A DNA stretch of 64,000 nt from NCBI RefSeq assembly GCF_020165495.1, contig NZ_JAIUIE010000008.1:62001-126000 (forward strand), read 5' to 3'. The notes beneath the pieces are model-generated. The model saw only the letters and a list, made by a program, of their open reading frames with translations, was not told the origin of the DNA and ran no database searches. The stretch comes from Mesorhizobium sp. BR1-1-16. Lineage in GTDB: Bacteria > Pseudomonadota > Alphaproteobacteria > Rhizobiales > Kaistiaceae. Below, piece after piece: positions 3,622 through 57,962 of this stretch (positions are counted from its first letter, which is position 1; the number at the start of each line of letters is the position of its first letter). Both the position numbers and the translations under genes were made by a program.

Positions 3622-4488
3622 CTATTCGCGCTTCAGGAGACGGCAGAGCTCGTCGAGCTGTTCGAGGCTCGTATAGCGGATGCTGAGCTGGCCGGCGCCA
3701 TTGCCCTTGTGATCGATCGCGACGGCCAGCCCAAGACTGTCGGCCAGCAGTTTTTCGAGCGCGCGCGTATCGGCATCCTTGTCGCGGCGAACGCGCGGCT
3801 GCCCGGCCTTGTCGACCGTCTTGGTCATCGCCTCGGCTTCGCGCACCGTGAGCCCGCCTTCGACGATCCGGGCGGCCACCGCAGCGGGATCATCGACCGT
3901 TACGAGCGCACGGGCATGGCCGGCGGTCAGTTTGCCCTCGCGGACATAGGCCTGAACCGGTTCGGGAAGCTTCAGGAGCCGCAGCGTGTTGGCGACATGC
4001 GGCCGGCTCTTGCCGATCACATCGGCCAGCGCCGTCTGGCTATAGGCGAATTCATCGATGAGCTGCTGATAGCCAAGCGCCTCCTCGAGCGGATTGAGAT
4101 CCGCGCGCTGGACGTTCTCGATGATCGCAAGCTCGAGCGCCTCCTGGTCGGAGACGTTGTTGATCAGCACCGGCACGTCATGCAGCCCGGCACGCTGCGC
4201 TGCGCGCCAACGCCGCTCGCCGGCAATGATCTCATAGGCCTCGCCCGCCCCGACGATGGAGCGGACCAGGATCGGCTGGACGATGCCCTTCTCACGGATC
4301 GACGCCGTCAGGTCGGCAAGATCCGCCTCCTCGAAGGCCTTGCGCGGATTGCGCGGGTTCGGCCTCAGGAAGGCGACCGGCACCCGGCGCGACAGGCGCG
4401 ACCGCTCATTGACCACCGATTCGGTATCGACGTCTCCGATGAGGGCCGCCAATCCCCGGCCGAGACGCCGGCGCGATCCATCTTCCAT
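3622..4488 (-). CDS. parB: Chromosome partitioning protein ParB
   Basis: CTP-dependent DNA clamp that loads at parS sites and spreads to form the origin-segregation complex with ParA. With the chosen start the product has 288 residues. It opens with the typical [14 protein letters not shown] segment, has the CTPase/ParB motif [13 protein letters not shown], then a helix-turn-helix around [23 protein letters not shown] and a C-terminal dimerisation domain. GAGGAG lies 7 bases before the ATG at 4488 but only 1 base before the ATG at 4494, so 4488 is preferred. The open frame further upstream overlaps parA and is not used. It follows parA after 43 bases; two matching parS sites lie 1.5-3.5 kb away. 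Confidence 0.96.
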
Positions 4489-4531
4489 TGGCATTCTCCT
4501 CAAATCGACAGGCTGCACGCGTTCGGGACTG

Positions 4532-5380
4532 TCAGGCGGCCCGCAGCCGCTTTTCACGCTGGATGATTTCCGAGGCGAGACGGAGATAGGCCTGGCTGCC
4601 CATGCTCTTGAAATCATAGAGCAGCACCGGCTTGCCGTGCGAGGGCGCCTCGGAGATGCGAACATTGCGCGGGATCACGGTGTCATAGACCGCATCGCCC
4701 ATATGCGCCCGAACATCGGCAACAACCTGGCCGGCCAGATTGTTGCGGCTGTCGAACATCGTCAGCACAATCCCATGCACCGAAAGCTCCGGATTGAGCG
4801 CGTGCTTCACCTGCTCAACCGTCTGCAGGAGCTGGCTAAGACCCTCGAGCGCGAAGAACTCGCATTGCAGCGGCACGAGAATCGAATGCGATGCCGACAG
4901 CGCATTGATCGTCAGCAGATTGAGCGACGGCGGGCAGTCGACGAGAACATAGGAGTAGTTTCGGCCGCGAATCGAATCGGGCCGCTGCACATGGCTGGCG
5001 ATGGCGCGGCGCAGGCGAAAAGCACGATCGGAGCGGCCGGCAATCTCGAGTTCGACGCCAAGCAGATCCATGGTCGACGGCGCGACCGATAGTCTCGGCA
5101 CGGCGGTTTCCATCGCTACTTCCGAGAGGATCGATTCCCCGACCATCAGGTCATAGGTCGACCGCAGGCGCTGCTTGCGATCGATGCCGAGACCGGTCGA
5201 GGCGTTTCCCTGCGGATCGAGATCGACGATCAGGACCTCCTCACCGATCGCCGCCAGCGCCGTTCCGAGATTGATCGCGGTCGTCGTCTTGCCGACGCCA
5301 CCCTTCTGGTTGGCCAGCGAGATGACGCGGGGCGCCGACGCCAGCAACGAAGGCGGAGAGAAGGAATGAGGCTCGGTCAT
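4532..5380 (-). CDS. parA: Chromosome partitioning ATPase ParA
   Basis: Deviant-Walker (MinD/ParA) ATPase that drives segregation of ParB-bound origins. The 282-residue product begins MTEPHSFSPP. It has the deviant Walker A KGGVGKTTT about 30 residues in, Walker A' DLDPQGNAS and Walker B LVDCPPSL. A start 45 bases further upstream would run into rsmG; the ATG at 5380 leaves a 22-base gap and has a GAGG about 6 bases before it. It is followed by parB and preceded by rsmG on the same strand, as in most alphaproteobacteria. ParA-ParB-parS here form a complete chromosomal partition system. Confidence 0.97.
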   Translation of the reverse strand: MTEPHSFSPPSLLASAPRVISLANQKGGVGKTTTAINLGTALAAIGEEVLIVDLDPQGNASTGLGIDRKQRLRSTYDLMVGESILSEVAMETAVPRLSVAPSTMDLLGVELEIAGRSDRAFRLRRAIASHVQRPDSIRGRNYSYVLVDCPPSLNLLTINALSASHSILVPLQCEFFALEGLSQLLQTVEQVKHALNPELSVHGIVLTMFDSRNNLAGQVVADVRAHMGDAVYDTVIPRNVRISEAPSHGKPVLLYDFKSMGSQAYLRLASEIIQREKRLRAA

Positions 5381-5402
5381 CGCGCCCTCGCGTGTGCTGC
5401 GA

Positions 5403-6038
5403 TCACGCCGAGCGGCGCTCGGCACGCCTGATTTCGACGATCAAACTGTTCGAGTCGATCAAGCTCTTGTGTCTTACCAGATCCAGCGCCCAAGATTGAG
5501 AGGCTTCCTTGAGCTCGGCGTCAAAATCCTCGCCTTTGTGCAGCGCCGCCTGGACGCCAGCCTGGGTCAGCGGCTCGGTTAGTTCCAAGAGGTTCGTCAA
5601 GCTGGCAAGGGCCCGGGCACTGATAAAATCGACCGGTTCCTGCCATTGTTTCAGAATCGATTCGATCCGGCCCTCATGGACAACCGCCGCGGCGCCGGTC
5701 TCGCGGATCGCCGTTCTCAGGAACGCACATTTTCTCTGATTCGATTCGACGCAGTGCACCCGCGCGCCGGGACTGTCGGCCAGCAAGATCCCGGTGATGA
5801 TGCCCGGCAGCCCGGCGCCACTGCCGATATCTACCCATCGGAGCACATCCGGAAACAAGGCGACAAGCTGCGCCGAATCGGCAATATGCCTGGACCAGAC
5901 TTCTCCGAGCGTATGCGGCGAGACTAGGTTCTGCGCTGGCTGCCATTTGCGCAGCAGCGCGACATAGGTTTCGAGTCGCTCCGCTGTTTCACGTGAAACA
6001 GGGAGAATGCGCGTGACGGCCGCGATACTGTCGCTCAT
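5403..6038 (-). CDS. rsmG: 16S rRNA (guanine527-N7)-methyltransferase RsmG
   Basis: SAM-dependent methyltransferase (GidB) that makes m7G527 in 16S rRNA; loss gives low-level streptomycin resistance in other bacteria. The product has 211 residues with motif [13 protein letters not shown] near residue 68. Its start overlaps the mnmG stop by four bases (ATGA on the minus strand), so the two are translationally coupled. Codons 13-18 (around residues VSRET) contain an exact 16-bp parS palindrome, so this coding sequence also carries a centromere site. Confidence 0.96.
5985..6000. other. parS centromere site 1 (exact match), inside rsmG
   Basis: TGTTTCACGTGAAACA is the perfect 16-bp consensus palindrome bound by chromosomal ParB. 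It lies within the N-terminal coding part of rsmG, about 1.5 kb upstream of parB and about 8.6 kb from the centre of the proposed oriC. ParB nucleation here is established for identical sites in other bacteria; in this strain it is inference. Confidence 0.95.
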
Positions 6039-7964: not shown

Positions 7965-7980
7965 CGTTTCACGTGAAACA
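7965..7980. other. parS centromere site 2 (15 of 16 bases)
   Basis: CGTTTCACGTGAAACA differs from the parS consensus only in its first base; the 14-bp core GTTTCACGTGAAAC is perfect. It lies between the mnmE stop and the mnmG start, about 2 kb from parS site 1 and about 6.6 kb from the centre of the proposed oriC. ParB binding is inferred from the sequence match. Confidence 0.85.
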
Positions 7981-13305: not shown

Positions 13306-14352
13306 TCAGCCGCGGACACGGCGGATCAGTTGCTCGACATGAGCGATCGGCGTCTCGGGCACGATCCCGTGACCGAGATTGAAGATGAACGGCGCGCCAT
13401 CCATCGCAGCAAGGATGTCGTCGACAGCAGCATCCAGCACGGCACCGCCGGCGACCAGCAGCATCGGATCGAGATTGCCCTGCAGCGCTGTAAGGCCGCG
13501 AAGCTCTGCCCTGACCGCATCGAGCGAGACCGTCCAGTCGACGCCGACAGCATCGACGCCTGTTTCACCGACAAAATCGCGGATGGCGCGATCGGCGCCT
13601 TTCGGGAAACCGATCACTTTCGCGCCCGGCACGCGCTCGCGCACGCCTTCGACGATGCGGCCGATCGGCTCGATCGTCCAGCGGCAGAAGCCTTCCGGCG
13701 ACAGAACGCCGGACCAGCTGTCGAAGATCTGGACCGCGTCGGCGCCAGCTTCCAGCTGGGCCGCAAGATAATCGATCGAGGCGACGACGATATGGTCGAT
13801 GAGAGCCGCGAACACCTCCGGCTGGCGCGCCGCGAGGAGACGAGCCGGCGCCTGATCCTTGGTGCCGCGTCCGGCGATCATATAGGTCGCGACCGTGAAT
13901 GGCGCGCCGCAGAAGCCGATCAGCGCCGTCTCTCGTCCGAGCTTGGCCCTGACGCGCGATACGGTCTCCAGCACAGGCGCGAGGCGTTCGGAAGCCCCTT
14001 CGCTAGTCAAGGCGGCGATACCCTCGGCATCGATCGGATCGAGCCTTGGCCCTTCGCCCTGTTCGAACCAGAGATCCCTCCCGAGCGCCTTGGGAATGAC
14101 CAGGATGTCCGAGAACAATATGGCGGCATCGACACCGAAGCGCTGGACCGGCTGCAAGGTCACGGCTGCAGCGAGCTTCGGGTTGAAGCAGAGATCAAGG
14201 AAGCTGCCAGCCTCGGCGCGTGCCGCCAGATATTCGGGCAGGTATCGGCCGGCTTGCCGCATCAGCCAGATCGGCGGCGGTGCGACGGCTTCGCCGCCGA
14301 GAACGCGCAGGAGCTTCGAGGTCGTTCCGTCCGGTGGCGACAGGCTGTCCAC
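13306..14352 (-). CDS. hemE: Uroporphyrinogen decarboxylase
   Basis: Decarboxylates the four acetate groups of uroporphyrinogen III to give coproporphyrinogen III in haem synthesis. The 348-residue product has the diagnostic N-terminal [13 protein letters not shown] and the later [13 protein letters not shown] segment, and the length is standard. It is the last gene before the proposed oriC and is transcribed away from it. hemE beside the origin is the classic alphaproteobacterial arrangement, first described in Caulobacter. hemJ and rho follow on the same strand. Confidence 0.97.
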
Positions 14353-14377
14353 TGTGACCTCTCTTAATCAAAAGGAA

Positions 14378-14396
14378 GACTCTAGATTCTGGATTC
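14378..14396. promoter_or_regulatory. Three GANTC methylation sites in 7-bp register within oriC
   Basis: GACTC, GATTC and GATTC start at 14378, 14385 and 14392, each exactly 7 bases after the last (GACTCTAGATTCTGGATTC). GANTC is the target of the cell-cycle methyltransferase CcrM in alphaproteobacteria. The trio sits in the AT-rich hemE side of the origin. Methylation is inference. Confidence 0.7.
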
Positions 14397-14496
14397 TTCT
14401 TCTTCTTGGCGGGGGATTAGCGTCATTCAGCGCTGTCCACAATCGCAGAGCTCTGCGGCATACGAGCCGGCGACCGCGAAGCCGGTTCTGGGGACA

Positions 14497-14505
14497 TGTG
14501 GAGAA
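14497..14505 (-). promoter_or_regulatory. Best DnaA box in the proposed oriC
   Basis: TGTGGAGAA is the reverse complement of TTCTCCACA, one mismatch from the classical DnaA box TTATCCACA. It follows directly on a TGGGGACA octamer (14489-14496), giving a paired arrangement of a strong and a weak-type site. Confidence 0.6.
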
Positions 14506-14588
14506 GCCGATCCCCCCACAAGCCTATCAGGTTGAATCGCCACAGGACTTTCATGATCGTTAAAATTGGAACGATTGACGCCAGCCTG

Positions 14589-14603
14589 TTAACGAAGCGT
14601 TAG
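14589..14603. promoter_or_regulatory. CtrA-like binding box in oriC
   Basis: TTAACGAAGCGTTAG matches the CtrA full-site consensus TTAA-N7-TTAA in seven of eight fixed bases with the exact 7-base spacer. In Caulobacter, CtrA bound to such boxes at oriC blocks initiation in swarmer cells. Binding here is inferred from the match and the location. Confidence 0.6.
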
Positions 14604-14770
14604 GAATTGAGGCGCTGTCGCCGCAATTCCCGATTCCAGACATCGCGGGATAATCTGTCCCCAGCCTCAGCCCCTGTTGATCGTTTTGAGTGCTTCGGGG
14701 AGAGTCTGGCGGGCGACCGCCGGTGCCGGGTCTTTGTCCGCATCTCGTCCACAGCCTTGGGGACAAAAGT

Positions 14771-15607
14771 GTGAAGAGCGAGCCGCGACATCTGCATCTC
14801 CATCTCATCTCCGATGCGACTGGCGAGACGCTGATCACGGTTGCGCGCGCCGCATACGCCCAATATCCGAGCGTTTCCGTCATCGAGCATCTCCATGCCA
14901 TGACGCGTTCGCCGAAGCAGGTCGAGCGGATACTGGACGATATCGAACGCGAGCCGGGCATCGTCCTGTTCACGCTGGTCGACCGTAGCATCGCCGATCC
15001 GCTCGAGGATGGCTGTCGGCTCATTGCCGTGCCCTGCTTCTCGGTGCTCGATCCTGTGCTGCAGGTGTTCCAGTCCTATCTCGGCGCCTCGCGCGAAGGC
15101 CGGGCCGGCGCGCAGCATGCGCTCGACGGCGATTATTTCCGCCGCATCGAGGCGCTCACATTCGCGATGATGCATGACGATGGCCAGTTGCCGGAGGAAC
15201 TCGACCTCGCCGAGATCGTCATCATCGGCGTCAGCCGGACATCCAAGACGCCGACCAGCATCTATCTGGCCAATCGTGGCGTCCGCACGGCCAACATCCC
15301 GATCGTGCCCGGCGTTTCGCTGCCAGCCGAGCTCGAACAGGTGACGCGGCCCCTGATCGTTGGCCTGGTGGCGACGCCGGACCGGATCGTGCAGATGCGG
15401 GAAAATCGCGTGCTGGCGTTCGCCTCGCTCGGCAATGACGACCCCTATCTCGACCGCGCCGCTGTCGCGGCCGAAATCGCTTCGACGCGGCGCATCTGCG
15501 CCCGCAAGGGCTGGCCGGTAATCGACGTTACCCGCCGCTCGATCGAGGAGACCGCGACCGCGATCCTGGCGCTGCATCGGAGTGGCGAACACGGGCGGCG
15601 CGAATGA
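14771..15607 (+). CDS. Pyruvate, water (phosphate) dikinase regulatory protein
   Basis: PSRP/PPSR (DUF299) family: bifunctional ADP-dependent serine/threonine kinase and phosphorylase that switches phosphoenolpyruvate synthase or pyruvate phosphate dikinase off and on. The chosen GTG start at 14771 gives 278 residues beginning MKSEPRHLHLHLISDATG, with GGGGAC upstream. A more distant ATG at 14690 would lie inside oriC and adds residues unlike the family. The ADP-binding loop GVSRTSKTPTS is clear. It is the first gene on the right of the origin (RP001/CC_0001 position) and overlaps maf by four bases. Confidence 0.93.
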   Translation: MKSEPRHLHLHLISDATGETLITVARAAYAQYPSVSVIEHLHAMTRSPKQVERILDDIEREPGIVLFTLVDRSIADPLEDGCRLIAVPCFSVLDPVLQVFQSYLGASREGRAGAQHALDGDYFRRIEALTFAMMHDDGQLPEELDLAEIVIIGVSRTSKTPTSIYLANRGVRTANIPIVPGVSLPAELEQVTRPLIVGLVATPDRIVQMRENRVLAFASLGNDDPYLDRAAVAAEIASTRRICARKGWPVIDVTRRSIEETATAILALHRSGEHGRRE

Positions 15608-35515: not shown

Positions 35516-35807
35516 CGGATTTGCCCCTCGGGTGCGCAGGCGCGCGGCAGCTGCACTCTAGGGCGGCTTGATTGCGAAACCCTTGCTATCCGCGAGTCGG
35601 TCAACCCCCTGCCGCTATTGGCGGCACGACGCTTACGCTCCGCATGACGGCTCGTTCGAGGCGCGTGAGCCGAAGTCGCGGGTGGCAACCTGAGATGCGT
35701 CAAACGAGGTAAGCAGGACTACGGGAATACAACTTACTATTGCAGGGTAGGGATGAAACGTGGTACACCCTATGTTACAAACAATCGGTGTTGCCTGCAC
35801 GGGGGTG
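35516..35807. other. Non-coding gap between the hybrid kinase and the XRE gene
   Basis: 292 bases without a credible gene. Base composition falls below that of the flanking kinase gene toward 35700-35800, and the hexamer TGTTAC recurs near both 35772 and 35808. It must carry the kinase promoter on the minus strand. No RNA gene was recognised. Confidence 0.4.
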
Positions 35808-36149
35808 TTACGGTTGTCCCACAAGAAATTTCACGAAATTAATGACCTGCCGGCGCTTCGAGGGATCCAGCGTTCGAAAGTCCGCGATCAATTCCTGCGT
35901 TTCGAAGTTCTCGTCAGGTCGCGATTCAAGCAATAGCGCCGTCGGTACGTTCAGCGCCCGCGAGACAGCTTCAAGCACAGCCTGCGAATAGGGTTGTTCT
36001 CCCTTTTCAATTCGACCAAGACTTGCGTGCGAAATCACAGGCTCTCCACCGGGGTGTGAGGCCGTCATAGACGATAGCTTGCGGAGCGACAGCCCTCGTG
36101 AGAGGCGCCACTCGCGGATAAACGTCCTGCCATAGGTGCCGTCTGCCAT
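35808..36149 (-). CDS. XRE-family transcriptional regulator
   Basis: 113 residues with a Cro/cI-type helix-turn-helix in about residues 8-66 (EWRLSRGLSLRKLSSM, then SHASLGRIEKGEQPYSQAVLEAVSRAL). A short C-terminal part ends LDPSKRRQVINFVKFLV, as in many phage-type repressors. The gene is visibly less GC-rich than its neighbours, which suggests later acquisition. It is divergent from the small membrane protein gene at 36258; an 8-bp inverted repeat between them is a likely operator. Confidence 0.85.
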   Translation of the reverse strand: MADGTYGRTFIREWRLSRGLSLRKLSSMTASHPGGEPVISHASLGRIEKGEQPYSQAVLEAVSRALNVPTALLLESRPDENFETQELIADFRTLDPSKRRQVINFVKFLVGQP

Positions 36150-36192
36150 GCCGGAACGATAGTCCGAAAAAGCAAATGTATGGTCTCATCCA

Positions 36193-36224
36193 TTGTGACA
36201 ATTCATCTAAATCCACTGTCACAA
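36193..36224. promoter_or_regulatory. Inverted repeat, possible operator between xre and the small membrane protein gene
   Basis: TTGTGACA (36193-36200) and TGTCACAA (36217-36224) are perfect inverse copies, 24 bases centre to centre, with an AT-rich 16-base spacer. The position in the divergent gap suits autoregulation by the XRE protein; binding is inference. Confidence 0.5.
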
Positions 36225-36257
36225 CCGGCGTAACATTCCTCCTTCTGAGGGGGGTTA

Positions 36258-36566
36258 TTGGGCTTCAGCATGCAGAATATTCCCCCTGCGCCGATGGACG
36301 AGGTAGATCTGGTTCAACGTCCCCGGCAACTTGCGCAGCAAGACGCGACGAAGCTGTCGGCCGTCGAAGAGGCAACCAAACGGGAAATTGATCGGGCCAA
36401 TGCCCGTCTGGCGATCGCCGAAGAGATCATGCGGCGCTATCCAGATGAATTCGAACAGCAAGGCTCGACGCGGCTACTTGGCGTTGCCATCGCGGTTCTG
36501 GCATTTGGCGTCGTCGCCGCGCTTATCCTGAAGGCAGAAGGCCTCTGGTTCGCCCTCGGCTTCTAG
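36258..36566 (+). CDS. Small hypothetical protein with one C-terminal membrane segment
   Basis: 102 residues: a charged, probably coiled-coil region (about 25-60, KLSAVEEATKREIDRANARL) and one hydrophobic segment (about 73-92) near the C-terminus. I do not recognise a family. GAGGGGGG lies 3-7 bases before the TTG at 36258, which favours this start; an ATG at 36270 is the alternative. It is divergently paired with the XRE gene and may be its regulated partner. Confidence 0.6.
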   Translation: MGFSMQNIPPAPMDEVDLVQRPRQLAQQDATKLSAVEEATKREIDRANARLAIAEEIMRRYPDEFEQQGSTRLLGVAIAVLAFGVVAALILKAEGLWFALGF

Positions 36567-36685
36567 ATCGCGCCAGGATTCCGCCGAGCGATCCGCATCT
36601 CCAGACGTTCAGCCGTGCAGCCGTCAACCGGTGCGGCGATAGACTATCACCACGAGGAAGACTGTCGTCGCGCGAATGACGTCGA

Positions 36686-40822: not shown

Positions 40823-42034
40823 GTGCGACCGATACTGTCAAGGCGAGGCATTGGCTGGCTGAGGGGATGGCGCGCTGCGGCGGCGCTGGCCGGCGCCATG
40901 GCCGCATCCGGCTGTGCGCCGACGATCGAGGCGAACGCCCCTTCGGGGGGGATGGCCACCCAGCCTGTCGCCACCGATACAATCGGCAGCGGCAAGGTGC
41001 GGGTCGCGCTGCTGCTTCCCGCCTCTGCGCCCGGCAATGCCGGGCTCGTGGCGGCGAGCCTTCGCCATGCCGTCGAACTCGCTCTCAAGGAAACTCCGGG
41101 CGCCGATCTCACGATCATCGTCAAGGACGACCAGGGCACGAGCGAAGGTGGCCGCGCGGCGGCCGCCGCGGCGGTCGGTGCCGGTGCCGAGCTGATCATC
41201 GGGCCGCTTTTCGCCGCCTCGGTACGCGGCGCGTCGGAAGTGGCACGTCCTGCGGGCGTGCCGATGCTGGTCTTCTCGACCGATTCCAGCGTTGCGGCGC
41301 GCGGCGTCTATCTGTTCGGGTTCCTGCCGGAGGGCGACGCGGATCGGATCGCGCGTTTTGCAGCCGCGCGCGGCAAGCGCAGTTTCGCTGCGCTCCTGCC
41401 CGACACCGGCTATGGCTCGGTGTTCGGTTCGGCGCTGCAGCGCGCGGTCGCCGCCAGCGGTGGTCAGCTTGCTGCCGTCGAGCGTTATGGCTCTGATGCC
41501 GCGTCACTCGGCCAGAAGGTCGCGACGGTCGCAGCGCTGGCAACGGCCGGCGGGGCGAGCGCCATCGCGGTTCCGGCCGGCGACGATGCGCCACTCCGGG
41601 TCGGGGCTGCGCTGGCAGCGGCGCCGGGTGGCCCTTCACGCGTGCAACTGCTCGGTTCCGGCCAGTGGAACGACCCGCGCCTGCTTGCTGCGCCGGCACT
41701 GCAGGGCGGCTGGTTCCCCGCGCCGGATGGAAGCGGCTTTGCCGGCTTCGCCGCGCGCTATGCCGCGGCCTTTGGCACGGCACCGCCGCGGCCGGCAGCG
41801 CTGGCCTTCGACGCCACGCGCCTCGCCGCCGGCCTTGCGGCGCGCTATGGCGAAAAGCGGTTCGCTTTCGAGACGCTGACCAATCCAAACGGCTTCACAG
41901 GCGTCGACGGCGCTTTCCGCCTGCTGCCGGACGGGCTCAACCAGCGCAGTCTCGCCATTTATGAAGTCGCGGCCGGCAGCGCCCGGATCATCGATCCGGC
42001 ACCGCGCAGCTTTCCGCCGCGCGCAGGTCTTTAG
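40823..42034 (+). CDS. LpoA/LppC-like penicillin-binding protein activator, lipoprotein
   Basis: 403 residues from a GTG at 40823 with AAGGAG about 9 bases upstream. A twin-basic N-terminus and hydrophobic stretch lead to a lipobox-like MAASGC near residue 32. The mature part is a type I periplasmic-binding fold: VRVALLLPASAPGNAGLVAA, VKDDQGTSEGGRAAA, LIIGPLFAASVRGASEVA. E. coli LpoA carries this domain and stimulates PBP1A; whether the alphaproteobacterial protein does so is unproven. It is divergent from rsmI and converges on hemW. Confidence 0.82.
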   Translation: MRPILSRRGIGWLRGWRAAAALAGAMAASGCAPTIEANAPSGGMATQPVATDTIGSGKVRVALLLPASAPGNAGLVAASLRHAVELALKETPGADLTIIVKDDQGTSEGGRAAAAAAVGAGAELIIGPLFAASVRGASEVARPAGVPMLVFSTDSSVAARGVYLFGFLPEGDADRIARFAAARGKRSFAALLPDTGYGSVFGSALQRAVAASGGQLAAVERYGSDAASLGQKVATVAALATAGGASAIAVPAGDDAPLRVGAALAAAPGGPSRVQLLGSGQWNDPRLLAAPALQGGWFPAPDGSGFAGFAARYAAAFGTAPPRPAALAFDATRLAAGLAARYGEKRFAFETLTNPNGFTGVDGAFRLLPDGLNQRSLAIYEVAAGSARIIDPAPRSFPPRAGL

Positions 42035-57298: not shown

Positions 57299-57919
57299 AT
57301 GAAGAACGCACCGCTTCCCGAAGGCTCGCGACTGATCGATGGCTGTTTCGACAAGGAGGGCCAGGCGTCGCTCGTTGCCGCCATCCGCGCTGTTGTCGCG
57401 AAAGCCCCGCTCTACCGGCCGGAAATGCCGCGCACGGGCAAGCCGTTTTCCGTGCGGATGACCAATTGCGGGCCGCTCGGCTGGGTCTCGGACCGGGCGG
57501 GTTACCGCTATCAGCCACTTCATCCGGTCACGGGAGAGCCCTGGCCACCGATCCCGCCGATGTTGCTCGCGCTCTGGAATGAGGTTTCGGATTATCCGCA
57601 TCCGCCCGAGGCCTGTCTGGTCAATTTTTATGACGAGGCGGCGCGGATGGGCCTTCATCGCGACGAGGACGAGGCGGCGCTGGACGCGCCCGTCGTTTCG
57701 GTATCGCTCGGCGACAGCTGTCTCTTTCGCCTCGGTGGTCGCGAACGCGGCGACCCCACCCGCTCCTTCCGCCTTGCTTCGGGCGATGTCTTCGTGCTCG
57801 GTGGCCCATCGCGGCTCATGTTTCATGGCGTCGACAGGATTTATCCCGGCAGTTCGACGCTGCTCGAGCGCGGCGGGCGGATCAACCTGACGCTGCGGCG
57901 CGTGACGCCGCCGGGTTGA
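57299..57919 (+). CDS. alkB: AlkB-family 2-oxoglutarate/Fe(II) dioxygenase
   Basis: 206 residues; repairs alkylated DNA or RNA bases by oxidative demethylation. The iron ligands are in MGLHRDEDE (His-x-Asp) and LMFHGVDRI (second His), and the 2-oxoglutarate-binding RxNLTxR is [11 protein letters not shown] near the C-terminus. [19 protein letters not shown] is the usual substrate lid. It is divergent from dnaK and lies 43 bases before pncA. Confidence 0.94.
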
Positions 57920-57962
57920 CGCCCGGACGCGGCAGGGCTTTGATCCATCTCTTCACCGAAAC

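Follow-up and report, generated by a model that had tools for sequence, protein, structure and literature searches.

Where does replication of the main chromosome start in this strain? The original prediction pointed to the intergenic gap between hemE and ppsR. From its position, its cluster of DnaA-like boxes, its unstable duplex, its conservation, the skew and KOPS switch in a congener (G011) and the nearby parS sites we consider it most probable (about 95%) that the gap at 14353-14770 is the oriC of the main chromosome. The known part of this result is the origin position and its content, by which the gap almost certainly joins the Caulobacter-type class of hemE/ppsR origins. Three features deserve a second look, namely a CtrA motif shared across much of the order, a T-rich tract devoid of DnaA-trios that is accompanied by a phased box pair, and the conserved element CTGTTGAT.

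Location, gene context and relatives

The window is the whole stretch of DNA that was analysed, with a length of 64 kb, and corresponds to positions 62001-126000 of C28, a contig of 187,769 bases, in a genome of 29 contigs and 5.20 Mb. Coordinates were rechecked, and hemE and ppsR were found as a divergent pair around an interval of 418 bases:

14353..14770, no strand: proposed chromosomal oriC, the entire hemE-ppsR intergenic gap (by position, DnaA-like boxes and relatives)
13306..14352, minus strand: hemE, left boundary gene (TIGR01464, 396.7 bits)
14771..15607, plus strand: ppsR (COG1806/DUF299), right boundary gene with a GTG start at 14771

The start region of ppsR is conserved in the 14 loci of the genus Kaistia; a longer frame at 14690-15607 gave 284.6 bits with PF03618 and 316.4 bits with NF003742. 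The gene order was as predicted, with hemJ and rho leftward of hemE and with maf, aroE, coaE and dnaQ rightward of ppsR. The boundary genes hemE and COG1806 are also those given for the Caulobacter origin Cori (PMC1914354), in agreement with the proposed placement at the conserved alphaproteobacterial origin position. The gap had also been described as the only one above 400 bases, which did not hold, as a rough GC3 gene call yielded two more of 436 (41200-41635) and 444 bases (57519-57962). A GC content of 0.555 was found for the gap compared to 0.62-0.71 in 2-kb blocks of the window, which places its AT content above that of the genome. Neither tRNA nor Rfam genes were found in the 64-kb window, and dnaA is located on a separate contig (C24).

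Two sets of relatives were compared, with labels of order and family taken from the record titles for loci and from kinship for genomes carrying a G number. The divergent hemE-ppsR gap was present in 71 of 80 loci of one set and in all 30 loci of the second, for which ppsR had been matched in 52 genomes and loci were taken from 30. No hemE match was obtained in the other nine loci of the first set (L035, L055, L061, L065, L066, L068, L070, L074 and L081), some of which are cut by a contig end. As ppsR was unmatched (E <= 0.001) in nine of 61 relatives (G015, G019, G020, G021, G023, G025, G029, G032 and G035), the arrangement does not extend to the whole order. Six of these relatives (G015, G019, G020, G021, G023 and G025) are of the same family. 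Over 95 non-redundant loci the gap measured 261-860 bases with a median of 417. This set leaves out L001 and L116, which duplicate the window, and L003-L008, whose records were considered identical to those of Kaistia genomes with G numbers; the gap slices used in the comparative counts carry one extra base. The nearest named relative is Kaistia soli with 96% PpsR identity.

DnaA-like boxes

DnaA-like boxes had been predicted on both strands and were found there, all of them degenerate:

14411..14419, minus strand: R1-type DnaA box, weak here, reading GGGGGATTA on the plus strand and GGTGGATTA/TGTGGATTA in relatives (read by eye)
14433..14441, plus strand: DnaA-like box CTGTCCACA, one mismatch to TTRTCCACA; its core TCCACAAT occurs in 14 of 14 Kaistia-genus gaps
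14489..14497, minus strand: weak DnaA-like box ATGTCCCCA, two mismatches (motif scan)
14497..14505, minus strand: DnaA-like box TTCTCCACA, one mismatch (motif scan)
14655..14663, plus strand: weak DnaA-like box CTGTCCCCA, two mismatches (motif scan)
14734..14742, plus strand: DnaA-like box TTGTCCGCA, one mismatch (motif scan)
14745..14753, plus strand: DnaA-like box TCGTCCACA, one mismatch (motif scan); TCCACAG on the plus strand in 12 of 14 Kaistia-genus gaps
14758..14766, minus strand: DnaA-like box TTGTCCCCA, one mismatch (motif scan)

At a cutoff of one mismatch to TTRTCCACA the gap has five boxes, whereas dinucleotide shuffles average 0.10 and none of 400 reaches five; the R at position 3 was admitted after the sequence had been seen. 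A sliding scan of C28 (9368 windows, 20-base step) gave four windows with five boxes, all on the gap, which is the densest such cluster of the 188-kb contig. With the published motif TTATNCACA seven sites were found at up to two mismatches compared to 1.77 in shuffles (0 of 400 reach it) and one site at up to one mismatch, a count reached by 51 of 400 shuffles. No box of perfect consensus is present in the gap. In the whole genome (G000) perfect TTRTCCACA occurs 15 times, none of them in the origin, and is scarcer than the reversed control with 37. The dnaA locus was considered as a rival origin and rejected, its 3483 bases containing no DnaA-like box at up to one mismatch. Among the relatives, 202 DnaA-like boxes were counted over the 95 gaps, with 13.4 expected from mononucleotide shuffles, and at least one box was found in 84 of the 95.

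Strand polarity and parS sites

Because GC skew is weak in the genus Kaistia, KOPS were added as a marker. KOPS point from origin to terminus (PMC2680272), and the motif GGGNAGGG has previously been applied in Agrobacterium (PMC12153318). As the genome of the strain is split into 29 contigs, its own skew describes the contig and not the whole chromosome. The cumulative GC-skew minimum of the contig was found at C28:72057, 4.7 kb from ppsR, and the difference between both arms was reached in none of 5000 permutations with 2-kb blocks and in a share of 0.0004 with 5-kb blocks. The KOPS of the contig lack the expected polarity (left of the gap 7+/3-, to its right 3+/3-). In K. soli the GC-skew minimum lies at -5.2 kb from ppsR, and its KOPS show weak polarity to the left (19-/11+) and none to the right (6+/7-). 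A local inversion as source of the odd polarity of C28 was not supported, as C28 is collinear with K. soli. K. soli C5 lacks about 1.1 kb that C28 carries with a small XRE-type gene (97586-98684; window ~35586-36684), and about 16.9 kb of K. soli C5 is missing at C28 99985 (window ~37985).

Two congeners assembled as a single contig were analysed chromosome-wide. G011 (5.35 Mb) was sampled as 40 stretches of 20 kb. Splitting its chromosome at ppsR and the antipode gave KOPS counts of 89+/16- for the right and 15+/75- for the left arm, and the best single arc ended at the sample adjoining ppsR (8+/75- inside, 96+/16- outside). On a 50-kb grid of antipodal axes the best KOPS fit, at 5.00 Mb (score 141), did not coincide exactly with ppsR; axes at 4.75-4.80 Mb scored 125-133. 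A contiguous map of 255 kb showed 20-/2+ left and 16+/4- right of ppsR, so that polarity flips within about 10 kb of this gene, and cumulative GC skew in this map is locally lowest 2.4 kb to the right of where ppsR starts. In the sampled cumulative skew the lowest sample (-0.229) was 0.24 Mb from ppsR, with -0.227 at 0.1 Mb and -0.218 at the locus. In G006 (4.59 Mb, ppsR at 2.80 Mb) the split at ppsR gave 68+/13- right and 7+/46- left. The flip occurs somewhere between about 2.4 and 2.9 Mb, and the best axis from KOPS only (50-kb grid) was 2.65-2.75 Mb, not exactly ppsR. The sampled chromosome-wide GC-skew minimum of G006 was not at ppsR, lying about 0.7-0.8 Mb from the locus, and the local skew contrast over 375 kb was not significant (0.12 and 0.16). 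The GC-skew minimum named as a check of the origin was hence recovered locally in the strain's contig, in K. soli and in G011, and failed to appear at the locus in G006. Taken together, the polarity switch sits at the hemE-ppsR locus; dissent comes from the G006 skew and from the near-origin KOPS of the strain and of K. soli.

The parABS system was found close to the gap:

5985..6000, no strand: parS, perfect TGTTTCACGTGAAACA (motif scan)
7965..7980, no strand: parS, one mismatch to the 16-mer (motif scan)
4532..5425, minus strand: parA (PF13614, 191.2 bits; ParA-type matches below the NCBIfam cut-offs)
3622..4665, minus strand: parB (PF02195, PF17762, PF23552; TIGR00180, 193.2 bits)

Both parS sites, the only two of the genome at up to one mismatch to the 14-mer, lie 6.4 and 8.4 kb from the gap, inside the distance of about 10 kb used for ParABS-linked origins. 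The near ends of parA and parB are 8.9 and 9.7 kb away, which confirms the predicted placement of parS and parAB within 10 kb. Each of the genomes G001, G006, G008 and G011 likewise has two parS (up to one mismatch) 6.8-9.0 kb from ppsR.

A variant of parS, TGATTCACGTGAAACA, differs from it by a single change through which a GANTC site arises, and exact copies were found in all 24 Bosea-like gaps and in that of Pseudochelatococcus (L029). It occupies gap position 192-225 in L009-L033 (except L028 and L029) and in L067, and position 445, reversed, in L029. In four of four Bosea-like genomes checked a perfect parS lies 6.6-8.7 kb from it. The variant is possibly a methylation-sensitive ParB site within oriC.

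Conserved elements and regulatory motifs

Conservation among the 14 Kaistia-genus gaps extends to the TTC tract, GGnGGATTAnCGTCATTC with variants, TCCACAAT (14/14) and a CtrA-like site, along with TCCCCAG on the plus strand (13/14), CTGTTGAT (14/14) and TCCACAG adjoining ppsR (12/14). The elements outside the boxes are:

14674..14682, plus strand: CTGTTGATC, conserved element lying about 97 bases ahead of ppsR
14589..14603, no strand: CtrA-like site TTAACGAAGCGTTAG, TTAA-N7-TTAA with one mismatch (count reached by 19 of 400 shuffles)
14378..14396, no strand: three GANTC (CcrM-type) sites at 14378, 14385 and 14392, inside the proposed unwinding element
14534, 14632 and 14702: further GANTC sites

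The element CTGTTGAT was found on the plus strand in 14 of 14 Kaistia, 16 of 24 Bosea-like and six of 18 other Hyphomicrobiales gaps (two of these 18 on the minus strand), and in none of the 39 gaps of other orders. Its distance to ppsR is 95-98 bases in the 14 Kaistia gaps, 95-99 bases in six of seven occurrences in other Hyphomicrobiales, and 172-294 bases in Bosea-like gaps. An IHF site at CTGTTGAT was rejected for its poor fit to the consensus, judged by eye. Scanning the gap for IHF sites gave no WATCAANNNNTTR at up to one mismatch and no WATCAN5WTR. IHF is listed among the origin criteria in PMC1914354, where it is allowed that not all elements occur in all genomes, and we therefore do not take the missing site as excluding oriC.

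The predicted CtrA-like box was recovered as the single site at 14589, and the predicted GANTC sites as six, a number that 15 of 400 shuffles reached. In Kaistia a CtrA-like site at up to one mismatch is present in 14 of 14 gaps at gap position 221-255 and is perfect in nine, while both the strain and K. soli (TTAACGAAGTGTTAG) have one mismatch. Compared against control spacers from 3 to 12, the exact motif TTAA-N7-TTAA occurred in 43 of 56 gaps assigned to Hyphomicrobiales (Kaistia 9/14, Bosea-like 24/24, others 10/18). Asticcacaulis, an expected positive, had it in 12 of 12 gaps, and no exact copy was found in Rhodospirillales-like (0/16), Sphingomonadales (0/4) and other gaps (0/7). Among the control spacers N8 was seen in six Kaistia and two Bosea-like gaps, and N4, N5, N9 and N11 in one gap each. 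With only 11 copies of the motif in the entire genome of the strain, its frequency in intervals as short as these gaps (about 400 bases) is far from what chance would give. The genome encodes ctrA (426.2 bits, cut-off 350) and gcrA.

Proposed unwinding region and box pair

Duplex stability was lowest at the hemE edge:

14347..14407, no strand: proposed DNA unwinding element, formed by the AT-rich flank up to and including the T/C tract (least stable 60-mer)
14394..14407, plus strand: TTCTTCTTCTTCTT tract, the T-rich strand being plus; similar hemE-edge tracts in Kaistia and many other gaps

The 60-mer starting at 14347 is the least stable of the 187,769-base contig with -1.251 kcal/mol per bp, the runners-up following closely (-1.259 at 36158, then -1.261), which bears out the AT-rich flank of the original prediction. 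A second region of low stability comprises the 60-mers starting at 14513-14553 with about -1.37 kcal/mol per bp. From the hemE edge the gap reads AT-rich flank with three GANTC, TTC repeat, short GC spacer, R1-type box oriented toward hemE, 16 bases and convergent TCCACAA box, and the layout from the T-rich tract onward recurs in Kaistia and several families. The spacing of 16 bases was obtained in all nine Kaistia rows in which the script picked the hemE-proximal box, by eye in the strain, and in seven of 16 other Hyphomicrobiales G-loci, with 17 in one more. In five of 14 Kaistia gaps, that of the strain included, the script (R1-type box, up to two mismatches) picked another box or none, and the strain's own box was read by eye; in all 24 Bosea-like gaps it found no R1-type box. 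Rhodospirillales-like loci have a spacing of 26-28, about one helical turn above 16, in seven of 16 cases and of 18 and 38 in two more; none was found in the rest.

Read by eye on the minus strand, the conserved hemE-proximal block gives TTGTGG-N17-TAATCC, a possible hemE promoter that is equally spaced in Kaistia and several other families. Such a spacing would also suit a gap that is a regulated divergent hemE/ppsR promoter region, with DnaA and CtrA acting as transcription factors and replication starting elsewhere, and so would the position of CTGTTGAT relative to ppsR in Kaistia and most other Hyphomicrobiales occurrences, the Bosea-like distances being larger. We regard this as highly improbable: KOPS and GC skew both switch at the locus in G011, skew switches in the strain's contig and in K. 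soli as well, parS is present nowhere else in the genome and no box cluster exists at dnaA. The shift by one turn in Rhodospirillales-like loci fits paired protein sites better than a promoter. In a second alternative the gap is oriC, and the block is chiefly promoter and leader of hemE (a GAA-rich RNA), with melting elsewhere in the gap or dependent on hemE transcription. The constant spacing and the second region of low stability agree with this proposal, which we nevertheless judge unlikely, since TAATCC is a poor match to the -10 consensus, the hemE edge contains the least stable 60-mer and the pair GTGGATTA/TCCACAA reads as two convergent DnaA boxes.

Melting via the standard basal unwinding system (BUS), in which DnaA-trios (3'-GAT-5') stand beside the R1 box, appears improbable, even though box and GC spacer have the positions expected of it and TAG-rich sequence is found at the equivalent place in some other Alphaproteobacteria, e.g., L036 and L058. 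Using a DnaA box with up to two mismatches, a spacer of 0-16 and at least three trios (rules from PMC8287927 and PMC8235120), no such run was found in the 27 Hyphomicrobiales gaps with a box (of 56), the script's box not always being hemE-proximal. Among the 39 other gaps, 29 have a box and four of these a run, so that neither group offers a strong test. For the gap of the strain (L083) the best candidate of the script was another box with a run of two, and 14394-14419 read by eye contains no trio. A BUS reading of the TTC tract itself was rejected: it lies on the wrong strand for the boxes at its right, none were found at its left, and three trios in a run were not obtained. These results do not support a DnaA-trio origin at the hemE-ppsR gap. 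Mean base shares on the plus strand left of the box, for Hyphomicrobiales and other gaps respectively, were 0.46 and 0.24 for T, 0.18 and 0.31 for A, and 0.17 and 0.37 for G.

The trio authors themselves suspect deviant motifs (PMC8287927), and the central trio adenine is described as replaceable by cytosine in B. subtilis (PMC10721633). As a speculation, the TTC repeat could supply the cytosine in place of this adenine. DnaA of the strain was aligned with the B. subtilis DnaA chain 8btg, a structure which we take to belong to the BUS paper. DnaA of seven Hyphomicrobiales (L002, L265, L268-L271 and L273; six of them outside Kaistia) is one residue shorter than that of 18 others in the loop that follows the position equivalent to B. 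subtilis K222; four of 29 loci (L267, L272, L275 and L276) were left out of this comparison. This difference is indistinguishable from an effect of common descent. The shortened loop is the one reported to contact the trio strand. In B. subtilis DnaA it is the Asn at residue 187 that touches the central base of the trio (PMC10721633). Co-variation of this residue with tract type was not supported, Tyr being found in Bosea-like and most Rhodospirillales-like DnaA alike; the strain and one Sphingomonas have Phe, and others vary.

Proposed mechanism and comparison with known origins

In the proposed mechanism DnaA would assemble on degenerate, low-affinity boxes spread over about 330 bp. The R1-type box at the hemE edge would direct it toward hemE, where the adjoining AT-rich stretch, T-rich on the plus strand, would melt first, the helicase would be loaded and two forks would depart. 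CtrA may occlude DnaA at the TTAA-N7-TTAA site, the GANTC sites would offer CcrM-type marking, and ParB bound to the two parS sites would segregate the new origins. More tentatively, these observations can be read jointly. Much of the Hyphomicrobiales (Kaistia, Bosea-like genera and others) might have an origin under direct CtrA gating, which would match Caulobacter and differ from S. meliloti and Brucella. In part of the order a T/C-rich repeat beside the R1 box with fixed 16-bp partner spacing might have replaced the TAG DnaA-trios, the initiator having changed along with it by the one-residue loop deletion. We see this as a possible reading that is less likely than not.

The analysis places the probable chromosome origin to a few hundred bases in Kaistia. 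Among the papers listed by the literature searches none has a title on the origin of Kaistia or Bosea, which is no proof that none is in print. Two testable claims arise, namely that an unwinding tract can work without canonical DnaA-trios, a deviation of the kind suspected in PMC8287927, and that control of the origin by CtrA is patchy, not absent, across the Hyphomicrobiales. A control motif reported to be missing from the best-studied rhizobia is conserved in the Kaistia-type origin and in those of its relatives, the strain's own site having one mismatch.

Among known systems, E. coli oriC has an unwinding element with a T-rich upper strand, to the right of which the R1 box is situated. The gap resembles it in both respects and differs in gene context, in the lack of an IHF consensus site and in its degenerate boxes. 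With the basal unwinding system of Bacillus subtilis (DnaA-boxes 6/7 and DnaA-trios) it shares the succession of R1-type box, GC spacer and unwinding tract; here, however, a TTC repeat occupies the strand where TAG repeats would be, and trio runs of the required length are lacking.

Sinorhizobium meliloti and Brucella abortus belong to the same order as the strain, and the chromosomal origin of S. meliloti adjoins hemE. Kaistia and Bosea-like gaps carry the CtrA motif at the origin, whereas the S. meliloti origin is reported in PMC4433202 to have neither CtrA motif nor CtrA binding, and CtrA of B. abortus is reported not to bind the origin (PMC2877005). CtrA of Hyphomonas binds beside its origin (PMC7200025).

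Compared to Cori of Caulobacter crescentus, the gap has one imperfect CtrA site instead of five, no IHF consensus site, and TTGTCC-like box variants in place of the G/W classes. Of the features used for Caulobacter-type origins, the hemE/COG1806 gap, a DnaA-box cluster beyond chance, the AT content and the GC-skew shift (G006 excepted) were found, and an IHF site was not. Both origins are alike in boundary genes, similar size, weak DnaA boxes, a CtrA-type motif of the form TTAA-N7-TTAA (imperfect in the gap) and an AT-rich stretch, and parS, within 8 kb of Cori (PMC1914354, PMC4468827), lies at a similar distance here.
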